Of a stretch of DNA of 64,000 nt, positions 27,425 through 38,990 are shown piece by piece; within the stretch, counting starts at the first letter, position 1, and each line of letters begins with the position of its first letter. Origin of the DNA: Flavipsychrobacter sp. GTDB taxonomy: Bacteria; Bacteroidota; Bacteroidia; Chitinophagales; Chitinophagaceae. Location of the stretch: positions 64,001 to 128,000 of the forward strand of contig JAEUVZ010000032.1 of the NCBI GenBank assembly GCA_016786665.1. The letters are read 5' to 3'. The notes beneath the pieces were generated by a model. The model worked only from the letters and a program-made list of their open reading frames with translations, was not told the DNA's origin and did not search any database. The position numbers and the translations under genes are program-made.

Positions 27425-28858
27425 CTAGTTCCAACCGCCCCCAAGTGCCCGGTAGATGTCTACCACAGCGTTCATCTGCTGTTTCTGCACTTCTATCAGC
27501 TCCAGTTTTGACTCCAGCGCGTCTCGCTGGGTCAGGAGCACTTCCATGTAATCGGCCCTTGCAGAGCGGAACAGGTCGTTGGCTATGCTGATGGATTCCG
27601 TAAGTGCGGCTACCTGTTTATTCTTCAGATTGTAAGCTTCCCTAGTGTTCCTGATTTTGGCCAGTTGGTTTGCTACTTCAATATAGGCGTTTAGCACCGT
27701 TTGCTCGTAATGATAAACAGCCTGCAACTGTTTGGCGTTGGCTCCCAGGTAGTCGGCTTTTATGGCATTCCGGTTAATGAGCGGTGCCGCCAGGTCACCG
27801 GCAAGCGAGTAAAGCATTGACTCAGGCGTTTTCAGAAGGTAGGCCGGGTTGAACGCCTGTAAGCCTGCCGCAGCGGAGATGTCGAGCCTGGGGTAGAACC
27901 GTGCTTTCGCTACCTGTACATCCAGGCGGGCAGCTTCCAGTTGTTGCTCTGCCTGCCGGATGTCCGGGCGATTATTAAGTAATTGCGTGGGTATGCCTGT
28001 AAGTACGGTAGGCGGTACCAGTGCGGTAAATCCCTCACTGCTCCTTGCTACCGGTTGTGGCATGCGCCCCAGCAGGAAGTTGATTTTATTTTCCGTTTCG
28101 GTTAGTTGCTGCTGAAGGCTGTACTGAAGGCTACGCGTTTTTAGCACTTCTGCTTCAAATTTTCGCACCGCCAGTTCGGTAGCCCTGGCGGCCGTCTTTT
28201 GCAACCGTACTATTTCCAGCGCATTGCTCTGTATCTCTATATTCTGTTTTACAATAGACATTTGATTGTCAAGCGCCAACAGTTCGTAGTACGAGTTAGC
28301 CACTTCGGCAACCAGGTTCGTCACCACAAAGTTTTTCCCCTCCGCCGTCGCCAGGTAGCGGGCGTACGCTGCGTGCTTTGCGTTGCGCAGCTTGCGCCAT
28401 ATATCCACTTCCCAGCTGGCGGTAAGTGCCAGCATATAGTCGGGCAGCGGCTCAGGCATGTCTTTACCAGGCTTTATTTCCGTGTTGGCTTCCATAGCGC
28501 CGATATTGGTATAGCGGGGCACCTTGTCTGCGCCGGCGCTGCCTTTAAGCCCCACAAAGGGTAGGTACTCTCCCTTGCGCATCCGCACTTCGTTTCGCGC
28601 CACCTCTATTTCCTGCAGGGTGCTGCCGAGTTCCTGGTTGTTGCGGAGCGCCTCCTCTACCAGTGCAACAAGGTTGGCATCGGTAAAGTAGGTATGCCAT
28701 TGCAAGGTTGCGGTATTGGTGGTGTCTGGCGAACCATCGTAGCTGGCTGGTAATTCCTGTTTCCCGTCCCGCTGCACCAGTACCGGCAGTTTGCAGCCTG
28801 CAGAAAGGAGGCACAAGGCTAAGGTGGCCTTGCATATCGTATTTATTGGTCTAGTCAT
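27425..28858 (-). CDS. TolC-family outer-membrane efflux lipoprotein (NodT type)
   Basis: A 477-aa outer-membrane channel with a lipobox (LLSAGC, lipidated C22). The two OEP repeats are visible: long helices with DANLVALVEEALRNNQELGSTLQEIEVARNEV (about 58-90), and the second repeat with NRPDIRQAEQQLEAARLDVQVAKARFYPRLDISAAAG (about 285-320). It forms the exit duct for the adjacent RND pump. The start codon overlaps the end of the pump gene by 8 nt, consistent with translational coupling. Confidence 0.93.
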   Translation of the reverse strand: MTRPINTICKATLALCLLSAGCKLPVLVQRDGKQELPASYDGSPDTTNTATLQWHTYFTDANLVALVEEALRNNQELGSTLQEIEVARNEVRMRKGEYLPFVGLKGSAGADKVPRYTNIGAMEANTEIKPGKDMPEPLPDYMLALTASWEVDIWRKLRNAKHAAYARYLATAEGKNFVVTNLVAEVANSYYELLALDNQMSIVKQNIEIQSNALEIVRLQKTAARATELAVRKFEAEVLKTRSLQYSLQQQLTETENKINFLLGRMPQPVARSSEGFTALVPPTVLTGIPTQLLNNRPDIRQAEQQLEAARLDVQVAKARFYPRLDISAAAGLQAFNPAYLLKTPESMLYSLAGDLAAPLINRNAIKADYLGANAKQLQAVYHYEQTVLNAYIEVANQLAKIRNTREAYNLKNKQVAALTESISIANDLFRSARADYMEVLLTQRDALESKLELIEVQKQQMNAVVDIYRALGGGWN

Positions 28859-31800
28859 TGTGCTCTATTTCTTCGGTTAGTGGATTTTCTTCTTCATTCC
28901 GTATCAGTTTTCGCTTTTCTGCCAGGCGACCGAACAGGTAGTACAATCCCGGAACTATAACTACCCCAAATACGGTTCCGAATAGCATACCTCCGGCTGC
29001 TGACGCGCCAATGGTACGGTTGCCTATGGCACCCGGGCCTGAGGCCATGAGAAGTGGTATGAGCCCGGCGATGAATGCGAAAGACGTCATAAGTATGGGG
29101 CGGAAGCGTTCTTTGGCTCCCTGTATGGCAGCCTCGTATACCGACGCTCCGGTGCGGTGCTGCTGCACGGCGAACTCTACTATCAGTACTGCGTTCTTGC
29201 CTAGCAGGCCCACCAGCATTACCAATCCTACCTGCGCGTAGATGTCATTGGCCAGGCCCATTATCTTCAGCAGAAGGAACGAGCCGAATACACCGGCAGG
29301 CAATGACAGCACTACGGCCAGTGGCAGGAGGAAGCTCTCGTATTGCGCGGCCAGTATAAGGTACACGAATGCCAGCACTACCAGGAAGATGTAGAGTGCC
29401 TCGTTCCCCCGTGCCACCTCGTCTTTAGAGAGGCCGCCCCAGTCTATATCATAACCCCGCGGCAGGGTTTGTTTGGCTACTTCCTGAATCACTTGTATCG
29501 CTTCGCCGCTGCTGTACCCTTTTGCCGGCATACCCCGTATGGAGGCTGTAGGGTACATATTGTACCGGTTTATTTCGTTAGGCCCCTGTGTTTTCACTAT
29601 TTTCATAAAGGCCGAGTAGGGGACCATTTCTTCTTTGTCATTCTTTACATACAGGTTCATGAGGTCTTCCGGCAGCTTTCGGTATTCCGGTGCTGCCTGT
29701 ACAAACACTTTGAAGAAGCGCCCAAAACGGATAAAGCCCAGCTCGTAGGAGCTGCCAATGAGAATGGATAGGTTGTCCATCGCCTTACCAATGGACACTC
29801 CTTTCTGCATCGCTACCTGGTTGTCTATTTGTAGTTCATACTGCGGATAGTTGGCGCTGAAGAAAGTGAACAGTCCGCTCAGTTCCTTTCGCTTTTCCAA
29901 CTCGTGCATGAACTCATTATTCACTTTTTCCAGCTCTTTGTAGTTGCCGGTATTGGTTTTATCCAGCAATTGCAGGGCAAAGCCTCCTGCGGCACCATAG
30001 CCTGGTACAGCGGGTGGGTCGAAGAATTCGATAGTTGCTCCCGGTATCTCTTTCGATTTTTCTTCCAACTCATAAATCACTTCTTTTACAGAGTGCTTCC
30101 GCTGCGACCAGGGTTTGAGGTTTATGAGGCAGGTACCGGCATTGGAGCCCCGGCCTTCGGTGAGCACCTCATAGCCCGCCAGTGCCGATACGGACTGTAT
30201 ACCATCTACCTTCTCGGCAATCTCTTGTAGCTTCCGGGCGATGTCGTTGGTTCGTTCCAGCGTAGAGCCGGGTGGAGTCTGGATGATGGCGTAGATCATT
30301 CCCTGGTCTTCATTGGGGATAAAGCCGGTGGGCAGCCGGGAACCGGTGGCCCATATGCCGGCACAGAATGCCAGCAGCATGCCAAAGGTGACAACCCGCC
30401 GGTTCACTATTGCTTTCAGAAAATTGGTATAGCGTCCGGTTAGTTTCTCAAACCACCTGTTGAAGGCATCAAGCATCCTGTCTACAGGGGAGCGCCTGCG
30501 TGGCTTGCCGTGGTTGTTCTTCAGTATCATAGCGCACAATACCGGTGTAAGGGTGAGGGCTACCAGTCCTGATATAACGATAGACGTAGCCATAGTAATG
30601 GAGAACTGTCGATAGAATATGCCCACCGGCCCCGACATGAATGCTACCGGTACGAATACGGCGGTCATAACCAAGGTGATAGCGATGATGGCCCCGCTTA
30701 TCTCATGAAGCACTTTCCGGGTGGCCTGGTAGGGCGACAAGTGTTCTGTTTCCATTTTGGCGTGTACGGCTTCTACTACCACAATGGCGTTGTCTACTAC
30801 TATGCCTATAGCCAGTACCAGTGCGAACAGGGTTATGAGATTGATAGTGAGCCCGAACAACTGCATGAATACAAAAGCGCCTACCAGCGATACCGGCACT
30901 GCCAGCGTGGGAATGAGCGTAGAGCGCCAGTCGCCCAGGAACAGGAATACTACCAGTGCTACGAGCAGGAATGCCTCGCCCAAAGTGTGCAGTACCTTTT
31001 CTATGGACGCATCCAGAAAGTTGGATACATCGTAGCTGATCTCATATTCCATGCCGGGAGGAAATGAACTGGCTTTTATCTCATCCAGTTTAGCTTTCAC
31101 CCGTTCTATCACATCGCTGGCGTTACTGCCGTAGGTTTGTTTCAGCATGATGGCGGCAGAGGGATAGTTGTCTTTGTTGGAGTAGATGTCGTAGTACTCG
31201 CTGCCGAATTCCACGTCGGCCACGTCTTTCAGGTGAAGCAATTCGCCGTCGGCGTTGGCGCGGATAATCACATTTTTGTACTGGTCCGGTTCGCTGTAGC
31301 GTCCCTGGTAGGTGAGCACGTATTCCAGCGCCTGTGCTTGTTTGCCATCGCCGCGCCCGATGCGCCCCGGCGATCCGATAACGCTTTGTTCGTTCAGCGC
31401 CTTCATTACCTCTTCCGTAGAGATATTGTAGGCGCGCATCCTGTCGGGCTTCAGCCATATGCGCATAGCATATTGGCGGCTTCCCAGTATGGACGCCTGG
31501 CCCACCCCGGTAATGCGTTGTACTTCGGGCAGTATGTTGACCCCGGCAAAGTTGAAGAGAAACTTCATGTCGGCGTGCGGGTCTTTACTGTAAAGGTTTA
31601 CATACATAAGCATGTTGGGTTGCTGGCGGCTCACTATTACGCCTTCGCGCTGCACCAGCACCGGCAGCCTGTTGGTTACCTGGGCGATACGGGTATTAAC
31701 GTTTACCACGGCCTGGTCGGGGTCGGTTCCCAGGTCAAAGACTACCTGTATATTTGCCTCGCCGGCACTCGTGGCATCAGAGGTCATGTACTTCATACCG

Positions 31801-32018
31801 GGTACGCCGTTGATGGCCTGTTCCATAGGTATCAGTACCGACTGGGTAAGTACATCGGCGCTGGCGCCGGGGTAGGATGCCCGCACTATCACCATGGGTG
31901 GTGATATATCCGGGAATTGTGAAATGGGAAGGCTCTTAATGGCCAGCACTCCCATGAAAACTATTACAAGCGACAGCACTATTGAAAGCACCGGCCTGCG
32001 TATAAAGCTCTGGAACAT
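28851..32018 (-). CDS. RND efflux pump permease (HAE1/AcrB type)
   Basis: A 1055-aa inner-membrane proton/drug antiporter with 12 membrane helices and two large periplasmic loops. The N-terminus MFQSFIRRPVLSIVLSLVIVF and the motif GTDPDQAVVNVNTRIAQ are typical of HAE1 pumps. In TM4 the proton-relay pair, D407-D408 in AcrB, reads D409-N410 (VVDNAIVVVEAV), while the TM10 lysine (K940 in AcrB) is K941 in LLGKNAVLIVEFA. It sits between the adaptor gene (25 nt upstream) and the TolC-like gene (8-nt overlap), so the tripartite system is complete. Substrates cannot be inferred. Confidence 0.95.
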   Translation of the reverse strand: MFQSFIRRPVLSIVLSLVIVFMGVLAIKSLPISQFPDISPPMVIVRASYPGASADVLTQSVLIPMEQAINGVPGMKYMTSDATSAGEANIQVVFDLGTDPDQAVVNVNTRIAQVTNRLPVLVQREGVIVSRQQPNMLMYVNLYSKDPHADMKFLFNFAGVNILPEVQRITGVGQASILGSRQYAMRIWLKPDRMRAYNISTEEVMKALNEQSVIGSPGRIGRGDGKQAQALEYVLTYQGRYSEPDQYKNVIIRANADGELLHLKDVADVEFGSEYYDIYSNKDNYPSAAIMLKQTYGSNASDVIERVKAKLDEIKASSFPPGMEYEISYDVSNFLDASIEKVLHTLGEAFLLVALVVFLFLGDWRSTLIPTLAVPVSLVGAFVFMQLFGLTINLITLFALVLAIGIVVDNAIVVVEAVHAKMETEHLSPYQATRKVLHEISGAIIAITLVMTAVFVPVAFMSGPVGIFYRQFSITMATSIVISGLVALTLTPVLCAMILKNNHGKPRRRSPVDRMLDAFNRWFEKLTGRYTNFLKAIVNRRVVTFGMLLAFCAGIWATGSRLPTGFIPNEDQGMIYAIIQTPPGSTLERTNDIARKLQEIAEKVDGIQSVSALAGYEVLTEGRGSNAGTCLINLKPWSQRKHSVKEVIYELEEKSKEIPGATIEFFDPPAVPGYGAAGGFALQLLDKTNTGNYKELEKVNNEFMHELEKRKELSGLFTFFSANYPQYELQIDNQVAMQKGVSIGKAMDNLSILIGSSYELGFIRFGRFFKVFVQAAPEYRKLPEDLMNLYVKNDKEEMVPYSAFMKIVKTQGPNEINRYNMYPTASIRGMPAKGYSSGEAIQVIQEVAKQTLPRGYDIDWGGLSKDEVARGNEALYIFLVVLAFVYLILAAQYESFLLPLAVVLSLPAGVFGSFLLLKIMGLANDIYAQVGLVMLVGLLGKNAVLIVEFAVQQHRTGASVYEAAIQGAKERFRPILMTSFAFIAGLIPLLMASGPGAIGNRTIGASAAGGMLFGTVFGVVIVPGLYYLFGRLAEKRKLIRNEEENPLTEEIEHND

Positions 32019-32042
32019 GTTATTGTGTTTTAGTGGGTCAGT

Positions 32043-33125
32043 TTATTCTACGTACACTTTCAGATCGCTTATCACCTTTGCCGGCTGCTGGTATTCGTAG
32101 TTTATCTTGTCGTTTTCCTTTACCTTCCGGATGCCTTCCAGCAGTATATGGTCGTTTTCGGCCAGCCCGGTTTTTACCACGAAGAGGTCGGGCATGGCAG
32201 CGGCAATGGTAATCTCCCGGGCATGTACCCGCTTGTCTTTATCCACTACGTACACATACTTTTTATCCAGTATCTCGAAGGTGGCTTTCTGGGGGATGAT
32301 GAGGGCGTTGCGGTAGGGTACCTGCATTTCAATATTGCCTGTCTCGCTGTGCCGCAGTAGTCCCTCTGGGTTGGGGAAGGTGGCGCGAAAGGCGATATTG
32401 CCTGTTTCGTTGTTGAAATCGGCTTCTATAGTTTCCACTATTCCGGAGTGGGCGAATACCTGGTGATTGGCCATCAGCAGGTCTACTTTAAAGGCGCTGT
32501 CTTTACGGCTGGTCATTTTATAGTCCAGGTATTCGGCTTCGGGTACGTTAAAGTACACCCACATTTTGCTGTTGTCAGAGAGGTAAGTGAGCAGGTCGCC
32601 CTCGTCTACCAGGCTTCCCTGCCGCACATGGAAGCGGTCAATGATGCCATCAAAAGGGGCCCTGATTTCTGTGAAGCCCAGGTGCGCCTGTGCTAGCGCT
32701 ACTTCTGCCCTGGCCTTATCGTATTTGGCCTTAGTCATCGCCAGTTCGTTCGGCGAAACAACGTTGCGGTCGGCCAGGGCCTTTGTGTTCTGGTATTCTA
32801 TGTCGGCCACTTTGGCTTCCGCCTGCGATTTCTGAAGTTCCGCTTCGTATAACCGGGGCATAATGCGGAAGAGCAACTGCCCTTTTTTTACGAACTGGCC
32901 TTCGTCTACATATATGTTTTGCAGGTAGCCACGTTCCTGGGCGCGTAGCTCTATGTGGCTGATGGCGCGAACCTGGCATACATATTCCCTTATAATAGAG
33001 GTATCCCTTTTTAGTGGTGCCGTAACCAGGAACCTGGTGGTGGTTTCCTTCGTTTCTTTTTCGGAATGGCAGCCAATATTGCCCAGTAGGGCAGCAACGC
33101 CCATGAGCATGAATATTTTTTTCAT
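32043..33125 (-). CDS. RND efflux periplasmic adaptor subunit (membrane fusion protein)
   Basis: A 360-aa adaptor that links pump and outer-membrane channel. A lipoprotein-like leader ends at C19 (LLGNIGC). The lipoyl domain halves (RAISHIELRAQERGYLQNIYVDEGQFVKKGQLLFRI and IRAPFDGIIDRFHVRQGSLVDEG) flank an alpha-hairpin (about 100-145). A beta-barrel and the membrane-proximal domain follow. Length fits the HlyD/AcrA class. It is the second gene of the operon, 157 nt after a small acidic exported protein. Confidence 0.93.
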   Translation of the reverse strand: MKKIFMLMGVAALLGNIGCHSEKETKETTTRFLVTAPLKRDTSIIREYVCQVRAISHIELRAQERGYLQNIYVDEGQFVKKGQLLFRIMPRLYEAELQKSQAEAKVADIEYQNTKALADRNVVSPNELAMTKAKYDKARAEVALAQAHLGFTEIRAPFDGIIDRFHVRQGSLVDEGDLLTYLSDNSKMWVYFNVPEAEYLDYKMTSRKDSAFKVDLLMANHQVFAHSGIVETIEADFNNETGNIAFRATFPNPEGLLRHSETGNIEMQVPYRNALIIPQKATFEILDKKYVYVVDKDKRVHAREITIAAAMPDLFVVKTGLAENDHILLEGIRKVKENDKINYEYQQPAKVISDLKVYVE

Positions 33126-35340: not shown

Positions 35341-35841
35341 CTATCCGCGGGGTTTAGCGGCGGCGGTCGCCTGCTTCTGGCGAATAAAAATATGGGTGAA
35401 GTAGAGCACGCCGTTCTTGTTTTTGTATATGGCTATGCCGCTCAGGTTGTAGTCGCCCTCTATGTTCTCCCGGTGGCCGGGGCTGTTTAGCCACATGGTT
35501 ACTACCTCTTTGGCGCTGTGTTGGCCATTGGCTACATTTTCGGCGGCGCCATTAGCCGGCTTCAGAGCCTTCATCAGTCCGTACATGCGCTCTTCAAAGC
35601 CATCGTGGTTGATGCGGATGGTTTTGGTGCCCATATACTTGCTGTGGCCGAACGCCGCTTCCCTTATGGCTGCGTTCATTTCCAGCGGGCGCAGGCCTTT
35701 CCTGGCCCGGTACTCGTTTACATAGGTCAGCACTTCCTGCTCCATAGCGGAGTAGTCGTCCTGCGCCAGCAAGCCCAGCGGCAGGCACATGGCTATCACC
35801 AGGAGCATGCTTCTGAAAATATGTGCGGTTACTTTTATCAT
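35341..35841 (-). CDS. Exported CAP/SCP-domain protein
   Basis: A 166-aa protein with signal peptide (MIKVTAHIFRSMLLVIAMCLPLGLLAQ). The CAP domain (about 33-155) has VLTYVNEYRARKGLRPLEMNAAIREAAFGHSKYM, MWLNSPGHRENIEGDYNLSGIAIY and a final YFTHIFI. Candidate active-site residues (His in GHSKYM, His in SPGHRENI, Glu in AAENVANG) are present. Bacterial CAP proteins are secreted and mostly of unknown role. Start at 35841 because the leader begins there; upstream in-frame starts add a non-signal extension. Confidence 0.88.
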   Translation of the reverse strand: MIKVTAHIFRSMLLVIAMCLPLGLLAQDDYSAMEQEVLTYVNEYRARKGLRPLEMNAAIREAAFGHSKYMGTKTIRINHDGFEERMYGLMKALKPANGAAENVANGQHSAKEVVTMWLNSPGHRENIEGDYNLSGIAIYKNKNGVLYFTHIFIRQKQATAAAKPRG

Positions 35842-35941: not shown

Positions 35942-37351
35942 CTACTGCTTCTTGCGGAGTTCCTTCATGTTAAAGTAGATGGGCAACGAAAGCCGGGAGG
36001 CAACCGGCACCCCGTTTTTGCGGGCAGGCTTCCATTTGGGCATCATCTCTACCAGCCGCAAGGCTTCCTTGTCTACTTCCGGGTGAAGGGATTGCTTGAT
36101 GGTAGCCTCGCCGGTAGTGCCATCGGGCTGAACGATGAACGCGACTATTACATCGCCTTCCGAGTCCACATTTTTAGGGATGTTCTGAATAGACAGGTAG
36201 GTGCCTATGTAGTTCTCCAGGGAGAAGTCGGGGTAGGCAGCTATTGTTGCGGTATCATCGGTCATTTTGCACGAGAATTGCAGGGGTAGGGTGTACCAGA
36301 CATTAACGTCTTCGCCATTCTGCTTTCCGGGAATCCAAACGGGCATATCTCGTACCAGGCTGAGCGCCATGCTGTCGATGGAGGGGTAGAGAGGCTTCAA
36401 AACGGAGATGCTGTCAATGTTGCCCGTGCGGGTAACGATGAAGCGCAGGGTAACTTTGCCCGACACGTTGGCCGTCGCGGCGTCCTCTGGGTAGGTGGTG
36501 TGCTCAGCGATATACCGACGGATGTCCACCCGCGATTCCGGCATTTGGTCGGCATAGGTGAGCACCGGGCCTTGTACGGGTATCCGCGGCACCCCCAGCG
36601 ATTTCCCGTTTATCCGGAAGCAGAAGGTAATCGATATGTGCGAGGCCACCGGTTTGCCTTTTATGGTGGCTGGCTCCCATTTGGGCATTAGTTTCAGTGC
36701 GTTCAGCGCGCGGGTATCCAGTATGGGGAAGAGGGGCTTACGCACCACGAAGTCACCCGCATTACCGTGCTCATCTATCACGAAAGAGATGGTTAGGTCG
36801 CCTGTGACCCCTCTGCGTATGGCTTCTTCGTCATACAGTTGTTCGGCATCCAGGTACTTTACTATACCGTAGCTGGTGATTGCTTTCTTGCTCGTTTTTT
36901 GTGAGTCGGGGTGTTGGATAACATAATTCACGCCTATCCGTACCGCGTCGGCAGGCAATACCCTCCTTGTCAGGTCTTGGGTGGGGACGCCACTCAGTTC
37001 GAAGCGAATAGGCAGGTTATAGGACACTTTCACCGGTTTTCCTCCTATCATTCCCGGCTTCCAGGGTGGGAATAATTTAATGACGCGAATCGCTTCAGAG
37101 TCAAGTGAAGGGTAAACGGAGCTATGTAGCCAGATACTGTCTATAATCCCGCTTTCATTAATGATAAATTTCACGATAACCTTTCCCACAATACCCTGGT
37201 CCCTGGCATCAACCGGGTATTTCAGGTTCCTCCTCATGTGTTCACCTATATCTACAGAGGGTTCGGGCATTGGGTCTGCCTTGGTATATACCTGGGCGTG
37301 GGTAGCACCGGCCAATAAAAGGGCTACCAGGGTAGCGTAAAAAAATCGCAT
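35942..37351 (-). CDS. Exported protein with four TonB C-terminal-like modules
   Basis: A 469-aa protein: signal peptide (MRFFYATLVALLLAGATHAQ) followed by four repeats of the TonB C-terminal fold, starting at about residues 25, 120, 277 and 373. Each repeat has a YP.DA-like start, a V.FI(I/V)...G.I central strand, an (L/S)D.(A/E)A helix, a MPKWxP-type tryptophan turn and a final xLPIxF strand. There is no N-terminal transmembrane anchor or Pro-rich spacer of a classical TonB. The second module has an insertion of about 30 residues. It follows the two-module paralogue by 7 nt. Confidence 0.85.
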   Translation of the reverse strand: MRFFYATLVALLLAGATHAQVYTKADPMPEPSVDIGEHMRRNLKYPVDARDQGIVGKVIVKFIINESGIIDSIWLHSSVYPSLDSEAIRVIKLFPPWKPGMIGGKPVKVSYNLPIRFELSGVPTQDLTRRVLPADAVRIGVNYVIQHPDSQKTSKKAITSYGIVKYLDAEQLYDEEAIRRGVTGDLTISFVIDEHGNAGDFVVRKPLFPILDTRALNALKLMPKWEPATIKGKPVASHISITFCFRINGKSLGVPRIPVQGPVLTYADQMPESRVDIRRYIAEHTTYPEDAATANVSGKVTLRFIVTRTGNIDSISVLKPLYPSIDSMALSLVRDMPVWIPGKQNGEDVNVWYTLPLQFSCKMTDDTATIAAYPDFSLENYIGTYLSIQNIPKNVDSEGDVIVAFIVQPDGTTGEATIKQSLHPEVDKEALRLVEMMPKWKPARKNGVPVASRLSLPIYFNMKELRKKQ

Positions 37352-37358
37352 GACTAGG

Positions 37359-38111
37359 TTATTTCTTGATACTGAAGACAATAGGTTGGGCATGATAGGC
37401 GCTGGTAGGTTTGCCGTTTTTGGTAGCAGGCTTCCATTTAGGCATGCCGTTTACCAGGCGGAGGGCTTCTTTATCCAGTGAGGGCTTAACGCCAATGCTC
37501 ACCGCCGCGCCGGAAATGCTGCCGTCTTCCTTTACCGTGAAGCCCACTATCACGGTGCCTTCCACTTTGCTGGTCATCGCGTCGTTGGGGTACCGGAGAT
37601 TGGCCTTAATGTACGCGTTAAGGTCGTAGCCGGGAGTAGGCTTCGTTTCGCCAGGGGCGTCATCAATGTTGAAACGGATGGGTAGCGTATAGTAAACCTT
37701 TACCGGTTTCCCTTCTGATCGTCCGGGCTTCCATTTGGGCATTTTTTTAAGTACGGCCACGGCGGTAGAGTCGATGGACGGGTAGACGGGCTTGGTTACT
37801 GTTATGTCTTGTATGGTTCCGGTTTCGTTCACTACAAATTTCAATACCACCTTACCGGTGATGTTCTTATCCTGTGCGTCTTTGGGATAGACGATATTTT
37901 TCGCCAGGTATTCGCCAATATTAACCGATGGCTCGGGCATTTGCTCTACGTAAGTATATATATCAGAGTCGCCCGATTTTGTTTCTTTCAGCTCATGGGT
38001 GCTGCTTTGAGTGCGTATGCCTTTCGTGGGTTCTTTAAGGGTAGCTGTTTGCGCGCCGGCAGCCCAGGCGCCGAGTAGCATGGCGGTAATAAGTATAGCT
38101 GATTTTGTCAT
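37359..38111 (-). CDS. Exported protein with two TonB C-terminal-like modules
   Basis: A 250-aa protein with signal peptide (MTKSAILITAMLLGAWAAGAQ) and two TonB C-terminal-like modules at about 60-150 and 160-250. The modules contain YPKDAQDKNITGKVVLKFVVNETG and MPKWKPGRSEGKPVKVYYTLPIRF, with the same pattern in the second. It lacks the membrane anchor of a true TonB. It lies 47 nt after the one-module gene and 7 nt before the four-module gene, in one probable operon. Confidence 0.87.
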   Translation of the reverse strand: MTKSAILITAMLLGAWAAGAQTATLKEPTKGIRTQSSTHELKETKSGDSDIYTYVEQMPEPSVNIGEYLAKNIVYPKDAQDKNITGKVVLKFVVNETGTIQDITVTKPVYPSIDSTAVAVLKKMPKWKPGRSEGKPVKVYYTLPIRFNIDDAPGETKPTPGYDLNAYIKANLRYPNDAMTSKVEGTVIVGFTVKEDGSISGAAVSIGVKPSLDKEALRLVNGMPKWKPATKNGKPTSAYHAQPIVFSIKK

Positions 38112-38158
38112 TTTCAGAGGTTTGTATAGTAGGTGCGGGGATACAGAACGCTTGACGG

Positions 38159-38716
38159 CTATTCATCTTCATCGTCTTCTTTGGCGGGTTTTTCTTTTTT
38201 CTCCCGGCGTTCCTGGTTGCGCTCCTCGCGCTCTTCGTTATCCTCCTGTTTCTTTTCTTTGCGCTCCCTGGTGCGGTCGGCTTTTTGTGCGGCGGCATCG
38301 TTTTCGTCCTCTTCAGCGGCCTCCAGGAGCACTTTTACAGGCAGGGTATAGTACATTTTGGTGGGTTTTCCGTTTCGCATGGCGGGGTTCCATTTCGGGG
38401 TTCCCTCCACTATACTCACCACTTCGTCATCCAGTTCTTTGTAACCGCTGGGTTTTGTCACCTTTACATCTTTCACATCGCCGAACTCGTCTACCATGAA
38501 TTTTACCGTTAGGCGGGCTTCTGCCGGGCTTTTGGCGCTTTTTCGGGCAGGCGGGCGAATGTTTTCCAGCAGGTAGCTGTTAAGGTCTATCGTTGGGCGG
38601 GGTTTTCCGTCGCCTTTTACGCTGGCTGAGGGTGCTTCCATTTCGTCATCGTCCTGGGCCAGGACGGGCAGGGTAGCGGTAAATAGGGCAAAGGCCAGCA
38701 GCAGTAGTCGTTTCAT
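38159..38716 (-). CDS. Exported protein with one TonB C-terminal-like module and a charged tail
   Basis: A 185-aa protein with signal peptide (MKRLLLLAFALFTATLPVLAQ), a short acidic linker and one TonB C-terminal-like module (about 42-130; IDLNSYLLENI, LTVKFMVDEFGDVKDVKV, PKWNPAMRNGKPTKMYYTLPVKV). The last 50 residues are a dense Glu/Lys/Arg/Asp tail without hydrophobic residues, probably helical or disordered. First of three adjacent paralogues, it has no membrane anchor beyond the leader. Confidence 0.85.
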   Translation of the reverse strand: MKRLLLLAFALFTATLPVLAQDDDEMEAPSASVKGDGKPRPTIDLNSYLLENIRPPARKSAKSPAEARLTVKFMVDEFGDVKDVKVTKPSGYKELDDEVVSIVEGTPKWNPAMRNGKPTKMYYTLPVKVLLEAAEEDENDAAAQKADRTRERKEKKQEDNEEREERNQERREKKEKPAKEDDEDE

Positions 38717-38920
38717 AGGGTAAAGATAAGCGTCTGAACTGGATTAAAGGTATTGAAGGCCCCGCTCACGGGCACGGCAGTTGCCGGAGGGTTGGGGAGG
38801 GATAAAGTCAGCCGGTGTAAAAAAACTCTGGATAAACGAACCCGGCAGGGAGGCGGAATGCATTGATTCTACTGATATTCAAGGGTCTTTTTCCCGTGCC
38901 TTAAAAAACTTTTGAAATAT

Positions 38921-38952
38921 TTTGCTCAAATAAAAAACAACTCTTACCTTTG
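38921..38952 (+). promoter_or_regulatory. Promoter of the S10-spc ribosomal protein operon
   Basis: TTTG at 38921-38924, a 20-nt spacer, then TACCTTTG at 38945-38952, followed by CAGTCCC: a textbook Bacteroidota promoter. rpsJ starts at 38991, leaving a leader of about 30 nt with no Shine-Dalgarno sequence. The rest of the 274-nt gap from 38717 contains no gene. Confidence 0.88.
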
Positions 38953-38990
38953 CAGTCCCAAATTTTACGGGAAAGAAGATATTTATAAGT

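Follow-up and report, generated by a model that had tools for sequence, protein, structure and literature searches.

The window analyzed here is a stretch of 64,000 nucleotides (C76:64001-128000) from a Flavipsychrobacter genome of 3.5 Mb assembled in 76 contigs. Within it, three minus-strand genes, denoted p1, p2 and p4, are located between a gene for a CAP-domain protein and the plus-strand S10 ribosomal operon, from which the set is divergent:

35341 to 35835, minus strand: CAP/YkwD-domain gene with an exported product (PF00188, 63.6 bits), 106 bases downstream of p4
35942 to 37351, minus strand: p4, 469 amino acids, four TonB_C modules, with A-B-A-B as the preferred order
37359 to 38111, minus strand: p2, 250 amino acids, two TonB_C modules (A, then B)
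38159 to 38716, minus strand: p1, 185 amino acids, one TonB_C module devoid of the YP motif, followed by a charged tail of 54 residues
38717 to 38990, no strand assigned: divergent intergenic region shared by p1 and rpsJ, scanned for promoters

The reading frames of p1, p2 and p4 are intact. The start of p4 was set at Met 37351, which gives the better leader fit; the start reported by the ORF finder (37393) overlaps p2. Judging from the short gaps, 47 bases between p1 and p2 and 7 bases from the p2 stop to the p4 start, p2 and p4, at least, are probably co-transcribed. In the shared intergenic region, a match to the Bacteroidota promoter consensus TTG-N-TAnnTTTG faces rpsJ at 38922-38952, and no full match to this consensus facing p1 was detected within 38717-38990. 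Rfam and tRNA scans recovered a single tRNA, distant from the three genes, and nothing else. The neighbors in the window include, in addition to the S10 operon and the CAP gene, HD, YitT and RND efflux genes. The RND efflux operon (27425-33125, minus strand) encodes an HlyD-type adaptor, an AcrB-type pump and an outer membrane factor, with an 8-base overlap between the pump and the outer membrane genes.

Domains, fold and leaders of the three proteins

The preliminary description of this locus recognized three adjacent genes for exported products that contain one, two and four modules resembling the TonB C-terminal domain, and both profile searches and structure prediction bear out the modules. 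The Pfam TonB_C profile PF03544, for which the curated cut-off is 24.6 bits, matches p1 once (50.6 bits), p2 in two stretches (128.1 bits) and p4 in four (209.8 bits), whereas TIGR01352 of NCBIfam scores above its own cut-off in all three proteins, and PF13103 also matches p1 (22.2 bits). Pfam searches detected no enzyme domain in p1, p2 or p4; a weak match of p4 to DUF3471 fell below the cut-off and was discarded. The A modules retain the YP motif and a standard last strand, the motif is lost in the p1 module and in the two B modules of p4, and altogether, YP or the Asn position in front of it is altered in four of the seven modules.

The AF2 model of mature p4, built with 25 related sequences, contains four TonB folds (mean pLDDT 81.4, pTM 0.36), with pLDDT mostly above 80 in the modules and below 50 in several linker stretches. 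As modeled, p4 is a chain of four separately folded beads on flexible linkers, the arrangement of which is not fixed. The top Foldseek matches of this model are TonB C-terminal domains. In VIA-align, module 1 of p4 matches 6i97_D, the TonB domain from the structure of the Pseudomonas aeruginosa TonB-FoxA complex, with the best Z of 11.6 (rmsd 1.7 A, 89 residues aligned), followed by other TonB domains, FusB and then, at lower scores, TolA domains; as every chain is displayed at its best place, the remaining modules of p4 appear in weaker rows only (Z 4.5-6.6 to TolA or HasB domains). The p1 model (mean pLDDT 83.0) consists of a TonB_C core and a helix at residues 118-155. The long charged tail ascribed to p1 at the outset is indeed there, with 15 K/R and 24 D/E among its 54 residues, and is modeled mostly as one helix.

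The leaders of the three proteins are hydrophobic, located at the very N-terminus and end in A-Q, as cleaved leaders do: MKRLLLLAFALFTATLPVLA followed by QDDD in p1 (VLA-Q), MTKSAILITAMLLGAWAAGA followed by QTAT in p2 (AGA-Q) and MRFFYATLVALLLAGATHA followed by QVYT in p4 (THA-Q). Most signal peptidase I substrates in Bacteroidetes are described as exposing Gln (PMC5837995; PMC10653852), and because the leaders follow this Q-rule, p1, p2 and p4 are, by sequence rules, probably exported and without an anchor, as proposed earlier. The Pro-rich spacer of TonB is absent as well: Pro accounts for 7.0-7.7% of the whole proteins, with no Pro-rich run in any of them, compared to 25% in the spacer of a TonB encoded by this genome.

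Genome-wide, PF03544 yields 12 matches, seven of which are in p1, p2 and p4. Three anchored TonBs are encoded elsewhere, two of them, on other contigs, adjoining ExbD and possessing Pro-rich spacers, and the third, a TonB-like protein, on contig C21. In the anchored layout, about 35 N-terminal residues precede the membrane helix, which is followed by the Pro-rich spacer; in contrast, the leaders of p1, p2 and p4 start at the N-terminus. If these leaders were kept as membrane anchors, p1 or p2, at least, could transmit force as an ordinary TonB, as the TonB_C domain and fold would permit. However, the A-Q cleavage motifs in all three proteins, the lack of the cytoplasmic N-terminus and spacer of the own TonBs, and the fact that no exbB or exbD was found among the neighbor genes read around p1-p2-p4 render this scenario hardly credible.

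Module history and the site adjoining rpsJ

The modules of the two larger proteins fit a repeated A-B unit, p2 being AB and p4 ABAB, as if a two-module unit had been duplicated. Identities are 57% for p2a-p4a, 49% for p2a-p4c and 43% for p2b-p4d, compared to 38% between the two p2 modules and 28-29% between neighboring p4 modules. With p2 as the query, both of its modules align to modules 3 and 4 of p4 (45% identity, E 6.5e-52), and the a-b linker of p2 and the c-d linker of p4 are both nine residues long, the other two p4 linkers consisting of 39 and 22 residues. Topology tests on alignments of about 90 columns gave ABAB a p-AU of 0.31 in an 18-row set and 0.36 in a 19-row set that takes in same-site relatives; because the A and B groups were picked after the identities had been seen, these values fail to exclude ABAB and do not confirm it. 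The competing topologies received lower values: p2 and p4 each monophyletic, 0.006 (18 rows) and 0.016 (19 rows); three neighbor pairs, 0.015 and 0.011; p4 monophyletic, 0.032 (18 rows). A single clade of all seven modules was rejected in the 18-row set (0.020) and tolerated in the 19-row set (0.16). The second module of p4 (p4b) shifts between trees and is poorly placed. A tree of 57 modules resolved nothing, and neither did clade tests on a quick 42-row tree, where all constrained trees outscored the unconstrained one.

The preliminary description took the numbers one, two and four for a series that suggests growth by module duplication, and suggested a phylogeny of all seven modules as the check. 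Duplication survives that check in the form of a repeated A-B pair, which the trees tolerate, but an origin of the modules within each protein, as successive doubling would require, is rejected in both sets (the 0.006 and 0.016 above). Nor is there a doubling rule, given that other arrays read 3+1, 3+2, 1+3 or 1+4+2, with counts from 1 to 4 in no order.

The gene adjoining rpsJ was read at 44 loci (19 and 25 new ones, the latter from 114 genomes with a match), and in five of these, it is a TonB_C gene: in the genome of the window (G000) and in G001, G162, G205 and G430, which represent four genera of one family. Given its absence at the other 39, a TonB_C gene is dispensable at this site. The gene encodes one module in G001 (133 amino acids) and in G205, whereas in G162, a three-module gene is followed by a one-module gene. 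The unconstrained tree places the four modules of G162 in one group, with weak support (90.9/51), which suggests that the amplifications in G162 and in G000 were separate. In G430 (L222), the TonB_C gene is degenerate and split over frames, through either decay with frame changes or an assembly error. Elsewhere in the vicinity, G002 has a one-module exported gene at the opposite end of this ribosomal cluster, following the gene for methionine aminopeptidase, and in G004, such a gene is found about 12 kb from rpsJ.

This patchy presence, together with the broken gene of G430 and the loss of YP in p1 and in two p4 modules, would be compatible with relaxed evolution, whereby surplus copies of a single exported-module gene were amplified and drift without a strong role. 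We nevertheless consider such an origin distinctly unlikely, considering that all three frames are intact, that the core fold residues are kept and that similar arrays persist in many genera.

Arrays of exported TonB_C proteins in Bacteroidota

We define an array as two or more adjacent genes that encode an exported leader and no domains other than TonB_C, with two or more modules in at least one of the chains. By this definition, p1-p2-p4 is an array, and it belongs to a widespread Bacteroidota type, namely, locally amplified arrays of exported, anchorless chains that consist of TonB_C modules only, connected by flexible linkers. Arrays with 1 to 4 modules per chain occur repeatedly throughout the order, as well as in Bacteroidales. 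A profile of the two-module unit, run against 396 genomes of the order, gave a match below 1e-32 in 156, many of these being single modules; among the matches listed, a hand count found one that covers both modules in at least about 50 genomes other than G000, and in at least four genomes, stops fall inside such a match. In a set of 19 genomes, three besides G000 have one two-module open frame each, and none has more. Among 30 loci that were read, one of them the window's own, three- or four-module exported proteins are encoded at L172, L173, L175, L183, L195, L197 and L198, counts that include weak-scoring modules, such as the third module of L175; the other cases with two or three modules are M56-like membrane proteins. 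The array layouts, in modules per gene, are 3+1, 1+4+2, 4+1+1, 1+3, 3+2, 2+2+2+1+1, 2+2+1+1+1 and 1+2+1+2; that of G005 is 1+1+1+1. A scan of genome contigs recovered 44 loci, for example, 1+2+1+1 in UBA4866 of Bacteroidales (L096). The only neighbors common to the arrays, with names assigned by eye, are ribosomal and guaA/accD-type housekeeping genes, mostly in close relatives. At L205/L206 and L213/L214, in two families of the order, arrays are found a few genes away from a guaA-like gene (again named by eye).

Another possibility is that the array proteins are partners, for example, ligands or substrates in a signaling pathway, of M56/BlaR1-type membrane proteases that carry one to three TonB_C modules. 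The genome of the window encodes two M56/BlaR1-like proteins, each with a single TonB_C domain; M56-type genes adjoin a gene for an exported one-module protein in G003 and a two-module gene in G005; and our collection of 172 proteins includes 29 polytopic TonB_C proteins, 19 of them with two or more modules, although these counts are not frequencies, the loci having been fetched for TonB_C or tandem matches and location having been assigned by a home-made rule. In the window's genome, however, the M56-like genes are on a different contig (C33), and such a partnership strikes us as very improbable.

Array proteins differ markedly between congeners. In two same-genus pairs, five reciprocal best hits between them show 45-58% identity, compared to 80-97% for most of the flanking proteins (the exceptions being 37, 58, 59 and 73%). 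For L213/L214, dN is 0.36-0.46 in the array and 0.02-0.18 in the flanks, and dS is 2.64 or saturated in the array and 0.5-1.8 in the flanks. Because the array dS is raised or saturated, the divergence can be read equally well as paralogue turnover or recombination and as fast change. Such divergence, along with export, variable number and uneven presence at the rpsJ site, is what one would expect of decoys, that is, soluble traps for TonB boxes, which would catch TonB-dependent bacteriocins or phage proteins ahead of the real TonB; pyocin S2, for one, is reported to offer its own TonB box to TonB (PMC9022066). Yet, with dS high or saturated, dN/dS gives no sign of positive selection on the array genes, and a decoy function looks quite improbable to us.

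Some relatives of these proteins appear to have been put to other uses. At L044:3587-4687 (G005 C33), two TonB_C modules are combined with a sorting tail of T9SS type A (38.4 bits for TIGR04183, against a cut-off of 23; 39.2 for PF18962, against 27), by which they are apparently sent to the cell surface. Further TonB_C proteins of the relatives are lipoprotein-like or contain MORN repeats. Together, these variants indicate that TonB_C is used beyond energy transduction in Bacteroidota, and the differences in location count against the notion that all TonB_C modules serve the TonB boxes of transporters.

Possible functions and relation to known TonB_C proteins

We tentatively favor the view that the array proteins are soluble periplasmic strand binders that grip extended peptides, for example, TonB boxes, without energy transduction. 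The leaders would be cleaved, leaving the p1, p2 and p4 chains soluble in the periplasm, where each module would grip an extended peptide as an added edge strand, in the manner of TonB with TonB boxes. Lacking a link to ExbBD, the chains would transmit no force and would sequester, compete for or cross-link the segments that they hold, be these transporter TonB boxes or other exposed strands; the modules devoid of YP (B modules of p4 and that of p1) may bind something else or act as spacers. The affinity of TonB domains for the TonB box is reported to reach tens of nanomolar (PMC9022066), and given this binding by the TonB domain, similar binding would be expected of a soluble TonB_C chain; moreover, the sequence of TonB boxes is described as flexible, which allows a single TonB to serve many transporters (PMC11658791). 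Several observations weaken the case for strand binding: all 21 TBDT plug matches in the genome are on contigs other than C76, where none was found; the majority of the modules, four of seven, deviate at YP or the preceding Asn; the gene is missing at most of the rpsJ sites read; and the sorting tail of L044 points to the surface, beyond the reach of periplasmic TonB boxes. An extension for which we have little confidence is that the fast-turning-over arrays form a soluble, multivalent TonB-box layer over the Ton system, acting as decoys or governors of the access of transporters, bacteriocins and phages to TonB.

A role outside transport altogether would be that of a cell-envelope scaffold, with the modules binding peptidoglycan or outer-membrane proteins, as proposed for the TonB dimer or TolA. 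The dimer of the TonB C-terminal domain, it has been suggested, might take part in peptidoglycan binding (PMC9022066), TolA domains are the next structural matches, and an exported CAP/YkwD protein is encoded downstream of p4. A TonB-like protein with a role outside transport is SjdR of Anabaena, described as shaping septal peptidoglycan and as dispensable for siderophore transport (PMC8262864, PMC8597729). By the same accounts, however, SjdR is membrane-anchored, unlike p1, p2 and p4, as well as Pro-rich, cyanobacterial and present once per genome, and Pfam searches found no peptidoglycan-binding domain in the three proteins. We deem a scaffold unlikely, and keep to strand binding as the preferred reading.

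With regard to known systems, the array proteins resemble the TonB of ExbB-ExbD-TonB in C-terminal sequence (PF03544, TIGR01352) and in predicted fold (6i97_D and others), but lack a TonB-like N-terminus and Pro-rich spacer, are not encoded beside exbB/exbD and, in p2 and p4, contain several TonB_C domains per chain. Tandem C-terminal domains in one chain are not in themselves new: Chu, Peacock and Vogel reportedly described, in 2007, TonB proteins with two such domains in series, and their survey is said to have found that not every TonB has a Pro-rich spacer. In the present case, there are up to four modules, in exported, anchorless proteins encoded by arrays of adjacent genes. The M56/BlaR1-type proteins share the one to three C-terminal TonB_C modules, but are polytopic with a peptidase-like part, whereas the array proteins consist of a leader and modules only, plus the tail in p1. 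The exported Bacteroidota proteins that combine TonB_C with MORN repeats or a T9SS tail are likewise anchorless, but have extra domains that are absent from p1, p2 and p4. Thus, TonB_C-domain proteins and, reportedly, tandem domains are known, and the new element is the anchorless multi-module chains in arrays; a search of open-licence PMC, by title and the start of the abstract, found no literature on exported tandem TonB_C proteins or their arrays.

Proteins of this type are likely to be labeled energy transducers in genome annotation, because the models that match them are named TonB or TonB family protein, and this is probably not what they are. If they indeed bind TonB boxes without force, an unrecognized regulator of nutrient uptake would exist in a phylum reliant on TonB transporters, and the number of TonBs counted in Bacteroidota genomes would be inflated, the seven of 12 TonB_C matches in the present genome being of the array type.

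Two further loci display different combinations. At L058:4283-6936 (G001 C9), two adjacent exported genes end in a TonB_C module, and the longer product, of 622 amino acids, contains MORN_2-like repeats, none of which passes singly. In UBA3663 of Bacteroidales (L105:7503-11531), five adjacent genes share a common MKRGKKICNALRDVRRQIA N-terminus, each with a terminal TonB_C module, and a two-module gene is located nearby.
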